DNA of 64,000 bases from Natrinema salinisoli. GTDB lineage: Archaea > Halobacteriota > Halobacteria > Halobacteriales > Natrialbaceae. The notes below the pieces were generated by a model that was given only the letters and a program-made list of their open reading frames with translations, made no database searches and was not told the DNA's origin. Below, in pieces: positions 35,420 to 39,944 of the stretch (its first letter is position 1; every line of letters begins with the position of its first letter). The DNA lies in NCBI RefSeq assembly GCF_020405205.1, contig NZ_CP084469.1:3100001-3164000 (forward strand). Direction: 5' to 3'. Made by a program: the position numbers and the translations under genes.

Positions 35420-35776
35420 ATGACTGAAGCGACCGACGACCGACCCGAACCGTCCGACTCGCCCTGCAACGTCGACTGTTACTGTCAGTTAAACGGGCTG
35501 ATGGACCTACTCAGTCGCCGGTACGCGATGCAACTGATCTGCGTCGTCGGTGCGATCGGTCCCGCGCGGTACGGCGCGATCGAAGACGCGTTCGAGGACG
35601 TGAGCAGTTCGACGCTCTCGAGTCGACTCGACGACCTCGTCGACGCCGGCTACCTCTCGCGGGAGCAGTACGCGGAGATTCCGCCCCGCGTCGAGTACGA
35701 CCTCACCGACGAGGGCGAGGAACTCTGCCGGCGACTGCAACCGCTGCTCGAGTGGGCCGCCGATCGAGGCGCGTGA
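35420..35776 (+). CDS. HxlR-type winged-helix regulator with N-terminal Cys cluster
   Basis: The 118-residue DNA-binding protein has a single winged helix: LMDLLSRRYAMQLICVVG, recognition helix SSSTLSSRLDDLVDAGYLSR and wing PPRVEYDLTDEGEELCRRL. This is the HxlR/MarR-like layout. Before the domain lie Cys16, Cys20 and Cys22 (CNVDCYC), with Cys41 in the first helix; ordinary HxlR proteins usually have one conserved Cys. Together with the divergent alkylmercury-lyase-like gene this suggests thiol or metal sensing, possibly mercury. It may repress both genes from the shared operator. Confidence 0.88.
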   Translation: MTEATDDRPEPSDSPCNVDCYCQLNGLMDLLSRRYAMQLICVVGAIGPARYGAIEDAFEDVSSSTLSSRLDDLVDAGYLSREQYAEIPPRVEYDLTDEGEELCRRLQPLLEWAADRGA

Positions 35777-35858: not shown

Positions 35859-36377
35859 ATGAGAGGATCCCGACCCGAGCGCAACGCGGAGGGCGACTCG
35901 AACGACGAGTTCGGGGCCGACTCCGACGGTTCCCGTCCCTCGGTGGTCTCCCTTTTCACTGCGCTGATCCCTCCGGCAGTTGCCCGACGCACGATCGCCG
36001 CATCCGTCACGACTGATCGGGGCGTCTACGAACGCGACGAGCCCGTCGAAATCACCGTCGCGTTCAAGAATCGACTCCCGATCCCCGTCGAACTCCCGAC
36101 GCCCCGCCAGCGCCGCTGGGGCTGGACGATCGACGGCCACCTCGAGGCCAGCAACGAGCGTCTCTACACCCGTGAACAGCCCGCCACCTTCGACTTCCGC
36201 GGCGGCGAGCGGAAACGGCTGTCGGTGACGTGGAACGGCCGCCTCGAGCGGGTTCGAAACCAGGGGCGCCGCGAATCCGTGGTTCCCGAGCCGGGCGAGT
36301 ACGAGATTCGGGCGTTCGTCGCGACGGACGAAACGGCGAGTCGGCCCAGCGATTCGACGACGATCAGGCTCGAGTAG
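35859..36377 (+). CDS. Conserved haloarchaeal protein with BsuPI/Ig-like domain
   Basis: The 172-residue protein has a disordered acidic N-terminus (about 1-45). A single beta-sandwich follows: VTTDRGVYERDEPVEITVAF, a Trp pair in QRRWGWTIDG, LSVTWNGRLERV, and the closing PEPGEYEIRAFVATDE. This resembles the BsuPI (intracellular proteinase inhibitor) fold and other Ig-like surface domains. No signal peptide or membrane segment is clear. The role is unknown; it ends well before the convergent small-protein pair. Confidence 0.7.
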   Translation: MRGSRPERNAEGDSNDEFGADSDGSRPSVVSLFTALIPPAVARRTIAASVTTDRGVYERDEPVEITVAFKNRLPIPVELPTPRQRRWGWTIDGHLEASNERLYTREQPATFDFRGGERKRLSVTWNGRLERVRNQGRRESVVPEPGEYEIRAFVATDETASRPSDSTTIRLE

Positions 36378-36546
36378 CGGCGGGATCGGTCCGTCACCGG
36401 TACTAGCGAGTGATCGGACGGGACCCATTCCTCACGCAACCCTTATCCGTGTTCTATCGAGTGAGCAATCGCTCGTAGCGGACTACTCCGGTCGGCGGGG
36501 AGGTAAAAAGGTCTGCGTCCACGAAGTCCGTTCATCGACTCGACGC

Positions 36547-36705
36547 TCACCCGGTGAGGAAGCCGGCCGGCGGAATGCGCGTTGCGGGGCGGCCGTCCTC
36601 GGTCGTCGCCTGATCGGCCCCGAGTGAGGGTGAGTGGGCGATCGTTCGTCGTGCCTTTGCGATTCGCTGCGTGCCTGCCGTGACGGTGGTGAAAATTTTA
36701 CTCAT
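36547..36705 (-). CDS. Small protein A (52 aa), tandem paralogue of the gene at 37131
   Basis: An ATG at 36705 opens 52 codons: MSKIFTTVTAGTQRIAKARR, then TIAHSPSLGADQ and a C-terminus ending PPAGFLTG. The neighbouring gene encodes a clearly related protein. The two share MSKI at the start, RTI-x-HSPS in the middle, a DGxPxTR stretch and the terminal GFLTG, about half of all positions. Such conservation at both ends and in phase shows that both are genuine coding genes. There are no cysteines and no signal peptide; the first 24 residues could form an amphipathic helix. I recognise no family. A 20-bp palindrome covers the start codon. Confidence 0.75.
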   Translation of the reverse strand: MSKIFTTVTAGTQRIAKARRTIAHSPSLGADQATTEDGRPATRIPPAGFLTG

Positions 36706-36716
36706 GCATGAGTAAA
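36697..36716. promoter_or_regulatory. Perfect 20-bp palindrome over the start codon of small protein A
   Basis: TTTACTCATGCATGAGTAAA reads the same on both strands and includes the ATG of the small gene. The paralogue has an imperfect version at the same place (37279-37297). This fits an operator or an mRNA hairpin that hides the start. Confidence 0.6.
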
Positions 36717-37130
36717 GAAGTGCGGCACATGCATAAGTGTTTTCGATATGAACGATTGTGTTAGTTCGACGGCAAAGCTCGCGGTTTCCGGAATCGATCG
36801 AACGGTCTTTCGGACCTCCTCGAGTCGAAATACGTCCGTATGGGAGACGAGTGCTATCGAGGCTGAAAGGTGATCAGAACACATACAAAATCAGGCACTA
36901 CCGCTTCGACTGATCATCGATGCGGGTAGTACGCTGGGTCGGAGTCGCCGTGATGTGACTCGAGTTCGGGGTCGGAACGTTCTCGGAACGCGGATATCGG
37001 GGAGAGCGGCGATGAACTGCTCTCGGAGCGCAAAAGTCGGACGCCGTTCGCAACTCGCCGTGAAACCCGTTTCCCCGTCGGACGGAGACCGAATCGGGTG
37101 ATCGGTTCTCGGTCGTCGCTCGCTGTCGGC
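36717..37130. other. Spacer between the two small-protein genes
   Basis: About 410 bases without a convincing gene. A 60-codon frame on the minus strand (36702-36884) runs through the promoter of small protein A and is not supported. On the minus strand CTTATGCATG lies about 28-37 bases before the start of gene A and parallels CTTATCCGTA at the same place before gene B, so these are probable TATA elements. Confidence 0.45.
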
Positions 37131-37286
37131 TTACCCGGTCAGGAACCCGCCCGGCGAAACGCGCGTCTCGGGCTGGCCGTCGTCGCTCGTCTGGACGCCC
37201 GAAAACGAGGGCGAGTGGTCGATCGTTCGCTGTACCTTCGCGGCGGTGTTCGTGTACGTTGCCAGGATGGCGAGTATCTTACTCAT
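37131..37286 (-). CDS. Small protein B (51 aa), tandem paralogue of the gene at 36547
   Basis: An ATG at 37286 opens 51 codons: MSKILAILATYTNTAAKVQ, then RTIDHSPSFSGVQ, DDGQPETR and the end SPGGFLTG. It matches small protein A over its whole length, with one extra residue in A, and both ends are the most conserved parts. The N-terminal 18 residues are moderately hydrophobic, the middle is polar, and there are no cysteines. It has its own promoter-like region (CTTATCCGTA about 30-40 bases upstream), so the pair need not be one transcript. No known family; no guess at function is justified beyond its being a small, duplicated, leaderless-type gene. Confidence 0.75.
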   Translation of the reverse strand: MSKILAILATYTNTAAKVQRTIDHSPSFSGVQTSDDGQPETRVSPGGFLTG

Positions 37287-37462
37287 ACACGAGTTAATAC
37301 TCGTGGCATACGGATAAGCATTATTGCGATTATCGACCGTGTTGGATGATCACCGATCGAGACGTGAGTGAACGAGTCTCACTATCCCGTTGGGTGCCGT
37401 TTCCCCTCTCGGATCGGCCAGCAGAAACGCCGGGACGCGACGTCGAGCGCGCGCCGAAATCG

Positions 37463-38797
37463 CTACCGGTGCAGGTGACAGGCCGCGAGGTGCTCGCCAT
37501 CGCCGAACTCCGATTCGAGTTCGTACGCCGGCCGTTCGCGCGCGCAGATGCTCTGTTCGGCGAAGGACTCGAGTAGCAGGTCGGTCGCCTCCGACCAGCG
37601 CTCGGTTTCGTCGTCCACATCGATACCCGCGTTCCGGTCGCTGGCGAGGAGTTCGATCGCCTCCTCGACGATCGATCCCGCCTCCCCCCGCGGCAGGTCG
37701 CCATCGAAGAACTCGGCTTCGATCCGGTCGGCGGGCATCGGTTCGAACGTCCGCCGCTTGACCGCTCGCATGAACGCCCGCGTCTGTGCCCACTCCTCGC
37801 CCCTCCAGTCGTACGCGTCGGGGGCGATCACGCGCGGACACCGCGTCCGGAACCGACAGCCCGACGGTGGATCGACCGGGCTCGGCACCTCTCCCTCGAG
37901 CACCCCTCGCGCACCGTTCTCCCGCGGATCGGGGACGGGAATCGACTCGAGCAGGGCGCGCGTGTAGGGGTGTTGTGGGTTCTCGAACAGCTCTTCTTTC
38001 CCGGCGAGCTCGACGATATTCCCGAGGTACATCACCGCCACGCGGTCGCTGATGTGGCGGATCACCGAGAGATCGTGGGCGATGAAGAGGTAGGTGAGGC
38101 CGAACTCCTCCTGGAGTTGCTCCATCGTATTCAGCACCTGCGCCTGGATGGAGACGTCCAGCGCGGAGACGGGTTCGTCGCAGACGACGAAGTCGGGATC
38201 GACCGACAGCGCCCGCGCGAGGTTGATCCGCTGGCGCTGGCCGCCCGAGAAGGCGTGGGGATGGCGGTTGTAGTGGCGCGGATCGAGGCCGACCTTCTCG
38301 AGGAGCTCTTTCGATCGAGCTTCTCGCCCCTCGTCGTCGAGCATGTCGTGGGCCCGCATCGGTTCCTCGATGATCTGGCCGACCTTCATCCGCGGGTCGA
38401 GCGAGGACTGCGGATCCTGGAAGATCATCTGCATGTCCGAGCGCGTCTGCCGGAGCCGTTCCCCGCTGAGGTCGGCCAGATTCTCCCCCTTGAAGTAGAT
38501 GTCTCCCTCGGTGGGCTCGAGTAGCCGCAGGACCGTTCGACCGAGGGTACTCTTGCCACAGCCGGACTCGCCGACGAGCCCGAGCGTCTCGCCGGGTTGA
38601 ATCTCGAGGGAGACGTCGTCGACGGCCTTCACCGTCTCCCGGTCGACGCTGATCGGCGGGAACTGGCTCGGCTCAAACTGCATACCGGCCAGCAGTCCCG
38701 ATTCCTGATTGAAGTACTTCGTGACGCCGTCGAGCTCGAGCAGTGCGTCGTCCGATTCGTAGCCGCTGTCTTCGTCCAGTCGGATGCCGCTACTCAC
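37463..38797 (-). CDS. dppF: Oligopeptide/dipeptide ABC transporter ATP-binding protein (DppF/OppF)
   Basis: The second ATPase of the peptide importer. In 444 residues it has Walker [18 protein letters not shown], signature [15 protein letters not shown], Walker [14 protein letters not shown] and the H-loop FIAHDLSVI. The C-terminal oligopeptide_HPN motif [13 protein letters not shown] binds an iron-sulfur cluster in some homologues. The GTG at 38797 is chosen because GGAGGTG lies just before it and it overlaps the dppD stop by 8 bases. A longer C-terminal tail (about 100 residues) follows the HPN motif. Last gene of the operon. Confidence 0.93.
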
Positions 38798-39944
38798 GAC
38801 CCTCACCTCCACTGTCGTCGCCCGCCGGATTCGCCGTGAGTTCCGACTCCGGCTCGCGTTCGGTCGATCCGACGGCTCCCTCGAGCATCGAGCTGTCCTC
38901 GTAGCCAGCGTCGAAGGCGTCGTGTTTCACGCAGGCCGCGCGATGGGGCTCGCCGTCTGCGTCGGCGACGGTCCTCGTCTCGGGGTGGACCCGTTTGCAC
39001 ACCTCCCGTGCGTCGGGACAGCGCGGGTGGAACCGACAGCCTGACGGCGGGTTGATCGCTTCGGGCATCACCCCCTCGATCGCCTCGAGTTCCGTGACGG
39101 TGCGATCGGGACGGGGAATCGAATTGAGTAGGGCGTTCGTGTACGGATGCTTGGTGTCGTAGAACAGGTCGTCCACCGGCGCTTGCTCGACGATTTCGCC
39201 GAGATACATCACGTTTACCCGATCGCAGATCTCGGCGACGACGCCCATATCGTGGGTGACCCAGATGAAGCTCGTCCCGTACTTGTCCTGGAGGTCGTCG
39301 ACGAGGTCGAGAATCTGCCCCTCGACGGTGACGTCGAGAGCCGTCGTCGGCTCGTCGGCGATGATCAGGCTGGGCTCGCAGGCCAGCGCCATCGCGATCA
39401 GCACGCGCTGGCGCATCCCGCCGGAGAACTGGTGGGGGTACTCCTCGTAGCGCTCTTCGGGATCCGGAATACCGACTTCGCGGAGCATATCGATCGCCTC
39501 CGCTTTGGCCTCGTCCTTCGGCAGCCCCCGGTTGAGTTCGATGAACTCCCTGAGCTGCCCGCCGACGGTGAAGACCGGATTGAGCGACTCCATCGGATCC
39601 TGGAAGATTACCGCGATCTCGTTACCCCGAATCCGGGTCCGGATCTCCTCGTTGGACAGCATGTCGTCGCGCTCGCGGAGTTCGCCGTCGGGTCCCTCCT
39701 CGAGGCCGAAGATCGTCTCGCCTTTGTAGGTGATCTCGCCGCCGACGATCTCGCCGGGGCTCTCGACGAGCCGTAGCAGACTCATCGAGGCGACGCTCTT
39801 GCCAGCGCCGCTTTCGCCGACGAGGCCGACGATTTCGCCCTCGCGGACTTCGAAGGAGATCCCGTCGACGGCGCGTACTGTACCGGCTTCCGTGAAGAAC
39901 TGCGTCTTGAGGTTCTCGACGCGGAGTAGTGGTTCGGAACTCAT
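38790..39944 (-). CDS. dppD: Oligopeptide/dipeptide ABC transporter ATP-binding protein (DppD/OppD)
   Basis: First ATPase of the importer, 384 residues. Walker A is [17 protein letters not shown], signature [15 protein letters not shown], Walker [14 protein letters not shown] and H-loop WVTHDMGVV. The C-terminal HPN motif is [13 protein letters not shown] with further Cys residues ([13 protein letters not shown]). The Q-loop is at [14 protein letters not shown]. It starts 2 bases after the permease stop and overlaps dppF by 8 bases, so the five genes are one unit. Confidence 0.93.

Follow-up and report, generated by a model that had tools for sequence, protein, structure and literature searches.

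Background

Short, partly disordered proteins such as SgrT of E. coli and photosynthetic CP12 target a transporter or enzymes depending on the carbon state of the cell. In haloarchaea, described proteins of comparable size include the C(P)XCG zinc-finger micro-proteins of Haloferax volcanii, which are shorter than 70 residues and for which regulatory roles have been proposed (PMC10716476, PMC11241148). A second point of comparison is offered by sugar regulation. In H. salinarum, TrmB binds the motif TACT-N(7-8)-GAGTA (PMC3794607), and pyk is de-repressed by glucose (PMC10817205). The TrmB targets of Har. hispanica include two hypothetical proteins of less than 50 residues, HAH_0188 and HAH_2805; one small target has the second strongest ChIP peak, and HAH_0188, the best studied of them, is activated rather than repressed by TrmB (PMC10817205). 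For the hyperthermophile factors TrmBL1 and Tgr, DNA is bound when glucose is absent, and TrmB sites downstream of the TATA box repress while those upstream activate (PMC10817205).

Here we describe two small minus-strand genes, A and B, found in a stretch of 64,000 nucleotides of Natrinema salinisoli DNA (the window). The reading we favour, at a probability of about 60%, is that both are members of a sugar-responsive regulon, repressed without sugar by a TrmB-type factor, and that their products act as cytosolic, partner-binding effectors of carbon state.

A conserved family of small haloarchaeal proteins

The first-pass annotation of the window had proposed A and B as paralogues of no known family, with aligned ends and one extra residue in A, in a gap of 1.1 kb. 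Both open reading frames are present (Table 1). The results showed that the two proteins align over their full length at about 52% identity, with a single gap of one residue (pairwise BLASTP, E = 5e-17), and that the intergenic stretch holding them (36378-37462) measures 1.085 kb between the neighbouring genes. Elsewhere in the window, a MerB-like gene (alkylmercury lyase, PF03243; 34693-35469, minus strand) is divergent from and overlaps an HxlR-type regulator gene (35420-35776, plus strand).

Table 1 Features of the A/B locus, in window positions
Feature	Position	Strand	Size	Sequence	Remark
Flanking gene	35859-36377	+			Other border of the A/B gap
Small protein gene A	36547-36705	-	52 aa	MSKIFTTVTAGTQRIAKARRTIAHSPSLGADQATTEDGRPATRIPPAGFLTG	A-type subfamily
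Perfect palindrome over the A start codon	36697-36716			TTTACTCATGCATGAGTAAA	Core TACTC-N6-GAGTA at 36699-36714; TrmB-like candidate operator
BRE/TATA region of A	36733-36743	-		AAAACACTTAT	28-38 nt before ATG; conserved in 85 members
Conserved upstream element of A	36744-36761	-		ACACAATCGTTCATATCG	Family form ACACGATC-TTCATC
Small protein gene B	37131-37286	-	51 aa	MSKILAILATYTNTAAKVQRTIDHSPSFSGVQTSDDGQPETRVSPGGFLTG	B-type subfamily
Same dyad over the B start codon	37280-37295			AACTCGTGTATGAGTA (minus strand)	One mismatch
BRE/TATA region of B	37314-37324	-		AATAATGCTTAT	28-38 nt before ATG
Conserved upstream element of B	37325-37342	-		ACACGGTCGATAATCGC
Last gene of oligopeptide/dipeptide ABC operon	37463-38812				Borders the A/B gap; Pfam ABC_tran and oligo_HPY

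A tblastn search with B against one-per-species genomes found copies 82-96% identical in six named Natrinema genomes; a match in Halieaceae (L009) proved to lie in frame within a larger bacterial ORF and was judged to be due to chance. Among 100 relatives searched, all genomes of the same genus gave strong matches. With a 30-row profile at E ≤ 0.01, the family was found in 88 of the 125 genomes and 19 of the 29 genera of the same archaeal family, a couple of these matches being weak (E near 0.005). We take this as the reliable count, since the 90 of 100 obtained at E ≤ 1 includes noise; matches at E 0.01-1, among them a recurring ORF of about 142 residues, were set aside as such. The gene is almost always present once per family-positive genome. 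Beyond the archaeal family of the window, the same profile yielded a single convincing member, in G126, among 392 genomes of the order. Pfam, NCBIfam and PHROG models and PDB chains gave nothing beyond chance-level matches to single members, in line with the annotation, and no relative was found in the plasmid, phage and viral-contig collections.

Complete members have 49-52 residues, with one longer variant (L051). Seven positions (R20, S25, P26, P40, G48, T51 and G52) are invariant in the 85 complete members; the C-terminus reads GGFLTG in most and ends in L/I-T-G in all 85. Median dN/dS, computed with the first three codons excluded, was 0.44 over 2783 non-independent pairs, and was below 1 in 99.5% of them. 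Length changes among members keep the reading frame, and at the Natrinema A loci identity is high from position -10 through the stop codon and drops beyond it. Stops, frameshifts and truncations were confined to a few copies: an A gene without its N-terminal half next to an intact B in Natrinema salsiterrestre (G027; L003/L057/L114), copies interrupted close to contig ends (L054, L103) and one damaged copy, in G268. One genome (G024) carries a near-identical pair of A-type copies, each on its own contig (L021 and L054), one of them frameshifted near the contig end, which reflects either a recent duplication or an assembly effect. Overall, the assignment of A and B to a genuine, conserved and undescribed small-protein family under purifying selection is well supported.

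In a tree of the 85 members, the A-type and the B-type proteins formed separate clades (98/92 and 100/100, respectively), the 52 alignment columns resolving little else. The tandem arrangement is a minority state: A and B stand side by side in the window genome, G010 and G015, the other members of the genus have only A or only B, and most genomes hold one gene of either type. These data suggest that A and B are an old pair of which one partner has been repeatedly lost.

A conserved dyad over the start codon

The 85 members share a common promoter layout, with an element close to ACACGATC-TTCATC at -56 to -42, AAAA at -38 to -35, CTTA at -32 to -29 and TWACTC-N4-ATGAGTAA over the start codon. 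The dyad within the last of these, TACTC-N6-GAGTA, is 16 bp long, is centred on the ATG and spans codons 1-3. The distance from TATA to ATG indicates that the mRNA is probably leaderless or nearly so. The non-coding ACTC (-8 to -5) and the T at -3 are 99-100% conserved, and ATGAGT is 100% conserved. Codon 2 is AGT in 85/85 members, and AGT is used at only 8 of 273 later serine codons of the family. To take this as proof of constraint on the DNA would be too strong, because 31 of 68 neighbouring genes that begin with ATG-Ser also use AGT there; the argument for constraint on the DNA is thus carried by the non-coding half of the dyad. On this comparative footing, the conserved operator of the small genes is a well-supported candidate.

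Because the dyad overlaps the start codon, part of the apparent conservation at the N-terminus of the peptide would be that of a DNA site. The shared MSK start (ATG-AGT-AAR), which had been read as protein conservation, is indeed conserved but coincides with the conserved dyad, and may be at least partly encoded by the operator. More generally, an N-terminal "protein motif" can be imposed by a DNA operator. The ACACGATC-TTCATC element, just upstream of BRE/TATA, is seen in most members and is not obvious in the pyk, glk and gapI promoters; it is perhaps the site of a second, activating factor.

The same dyad at genes of sugar metabolism

The dyad of the small genes fits the TrmB motif TACT-N(7-8)-GAGTA, perfectly in A and with one mismatch in B. 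In the window genome, TACT-N7-GAGTA gave 26 strand-hits, versus 7 for the reversed control. Seven perfect TACTC-N6-GAGTA dyads occur there, some inside coding sequence; apart from the one at gene A, they include a site immediately ahead of pyruvate kinase, another upstream of a ROK glucokinase and a third in front of a SemiSWEET-like ORF (C2:281289, L153), these three names being read from translations. The window genome also encodes four TrmB-type regulators (PF11495, E ≤ 7e-36).

Among the relatives, the dyad (at most one mismatch) was found in 24 of 29 pyk promoters and 27 of 30 glk promoters, with 0.2 expected for each from mononucleotide shuffles. In both it sits just upstream of BRE/TATA, at a nearly fixed position about 57-60 nt before the ATG, and its spacers vary (footprint). 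A close parallel to the small genes is gapI, the bacterial-type GAPDH gene, of Natrialbaceae: in the MSEHSY type (L268-L279, L281) the dyad overlaps the start codon, the TATA box lies at about -30 and the gene starts with ATGAGT. This gene differs from the small gene in encoding an enzyme and in a right arm that reads GAGTG rather than GAGTA. No dyad is seen in a second gapI class, which has another promoter. In several gapII genes the dyad stands before TATA, about 70-85 nt upstream (L300, L303, L307, L313, L319-L322). Within one archaeal family, the operator therefore appears to join the small gene with pyk, glk and gapI, which makes a strong comparative case that A and B belong to a TrmB-like sugar regulon.

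Regulator and sign of control

Under the favoured reading, a TrmB-type sensor would sit on the dyad when sugar is absent and thereby block initiation; when sugar is present, the small protein would be made from a leaderless mRNA along with the glycolytic enzymes. It would then stay in the cytosol and bind a partner through its conserved tail, an effector role that we propose with low confidence. The identity of the sensor and the repression without sugar are suggested by the dyad: by the position rules of TrmBL1 and Tgr, lack of sugar would repress both the small gene and gapI, and sugar would open them. The sign of regulation is nevertheless uncertain, because the dyads of pyk and glk, just upstream of BRE/TATA, are compatible with activation as well as repression. 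HAH_0188 may also count against this reading, being activated by TrmB whereas A and B are proposed to be repressed. Moreover, "sugar present" need not equal glycolytic growth here, since Natrinema sp. J7-2 has been described as nonsaccharolytic and without gapI, and no gapI was found in the window genome.

The main alternative to TrmB is GfcR. The family and the dyad would be the same, with GfcR or another sugar regulator as the factor and the small gene off when sugar is present. In Haloferax, GfcR is an activator of gapI and pyk, and Har. hispanica also has this protein (PMC11519228); the dyads of pyk and glk precede TATA, as activator sites usually do. However, the dyad fits the TrmB motif (PMC3794607), the gapI dyad lies on the start codon, an unexpected place for an activator, and some gapII genes carry an upstream dyad while gapII is TrmB-activated in Har. 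hispanica. We consider control by GfcR or a similar factor rather unlikely. At the other end of the scale, a regulatory or dual-function RNA in which the ORF is incidental might account for a promoter conserved to the same degree as the ORF; such an RNA is hardly credible, given a dN/dS of about 0.44 with codons 1-3 omitted, length changes that stay in frame and identity that drops past the stop codon. The single Rfam hit, to sR5, was below threshold (17.2 bits versus a cut-off of 40) and was judged to be chance.

With the TrmB-type reading, an undescribed family with no Pfam or NCBIfam model gains a testable setting, which comes with predictions of the class of regulator, of the operator and of the inducing condition. 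Genome editing through the endogenous CRISPR-Cas system is reported for Natrinema gari J7-2 (PMC10433800). N. gari has a B-type copy (tblastn), so a knockout looks practicable.

Properties of the protein and its genomic neighbourhood

The family has a median pI of 9.7, and the long proteins of the window mostly have a pI of 4-5; the small proteins are thus cationic for a haloarchaeon. The N-terminal 24 residues carry a median net charge of +4, and the hydrophobic moment of the helix is modestly above that of shuffles (median z 1.1). AlphaFold gave a low-confidence helix at residues 3-24 and left the rest without structure (pLDDT 57, pTM 0.20); judged by eye, the stretch 3-24 is polar and cationic and lacks a hydrophobic core. 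The predicted protein is therefore a cationic N-terminal helix followed by a disordered, conserved tail ending in GG-F-L-T-G. A ubiquitin-like SAMP, with a beta-grasp fold and a C-terminal Gly-Gly, was considered and rejected, as the protein ends in GFLTG and helix plus disorder are predicted, albeit at low confidence. The C(P)XCG micro-proteins are likewise haloarchaeal and below 70 residues, but A and B show no sequence relation to them. As the annotation had noted, neither A nor B contains cysteine, and the two C(P)XCG motifs are accordingly lacking; a few relatives, e.g. L029 and L046, do have cysteines. The conserved, probably disordered tail and the lack of consistently linked export genes suggest that the small protein probably binds a partner.

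The genomic neighbourhood bears on two further explanations. Across 41 loci, the neighbours include dpp genes, CBS, glyS, hmgA and others, and in about 31 of them (about three quarters) the small gene lies directly downstream of dppABCDF on the same strand. This synteny, together with a sugar operator that would suit a switch of peptide uptake, might suggest that the small protein acts on the neighbouring Dpp-type peptide transporter, for example by stopping peptide uptake when sugar is present. Four loci keep the dpp side with the other flank lost (L084, L097, L098, L109); however, four others have lost dpp and kept the other flank (L085, L090, L095, L113), in several genera the small gene lies near hmgA or elsewhere, and dpp is served by a promoter with a TATA-like box of its own and without the dyad. 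Because breakage is symmetric, the small gene also occurs elsewhere and the dpp promoter lacks the dyad, we did not use dpp as functional evidence; the synteny is real, but a functional link to it was rejected, and an action on the transporter seems improbable.

The annotation had also offered a peptide signal, an antimicrobial or a regulator as the function of the pair, and a regulator fits best of the three. A secreted peptide, either a quorum signal or a halocin-like antimicrobial cut from the C-terminus, would account for the strong conservation of the short C-terminus and for the cationic N-terminal helix, and a dipeptide/oligopeptide importer precedes the gene in about three quarters of the loci. 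Such a peptide is very improbable. No signal peptide is evident by eye, and no gene for export, modification, processing or immunity accompanies the family consistently across the 41 loci, where synteny breaks equally often (four loci each) on the dpp side and on the other. The family has no mobile or viral relatives in the collections searched, and is inherited on the chromosome, mostly in single copy, throughout an archaeal family; its tail is near-invariant across genera, unlike what signal specificity or an arms race would produce; and the gene has a sugar-regulon operator. A modified peptide, suggested by the conserved terminus, was likewise discarded, with neither supporting genes nor a mobile context.

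Small genes behind the dyad outside the family

The pattern TWACTC-N4-ATGAGTAA was found in 88 of 384 genomes of the order, with the reversed control almost absent. HAH_0188 and HAH_2805 resemble A and B in being very small haloarchaeal proteins whose promoter has a TrmB-type palindrome; these two are direct regulon members activated by TrmB. In two other haloarchaeal families, tiny ORFs of 24-29 residues (MSKxENYRLFxQDxKKWAxKK) with no sequence relation to the A/B family lie behind the same start-codon dyad (L170-L174, L176 and L179 in f17; L182, L184, L186 and L187 in f14; about position 1510). The small TrmB targets of Har. hispanica and these dyad-fronted ORFs suggest that small proteins may recur as outputs of sugar control in haloarchaea.

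A bolder and distinctly tentative extension is that the micro-protein, whose first three codons would contain the operator, is a family-wide core output of the sugar regulon and controls carbon flux by binding an enzyme or a transporter, and that unrelated tiny proteins behind the same operator elsewhere play the same role. It would then be a counterpart, not a relative, of SgrT and CP12, since the likeness is one of proposed working only, without sequence relation. In other families, ORFs of 13-14 residues (MSKSFQ..) stand between the dyad and SemiSWEET-like genes (L177, L178, L189, L192-L196; about position 1510), and in one genus outside the family of the window a bacterial-type GAPDH gene lies behind TWACTC-N4-ATGAGTAA.
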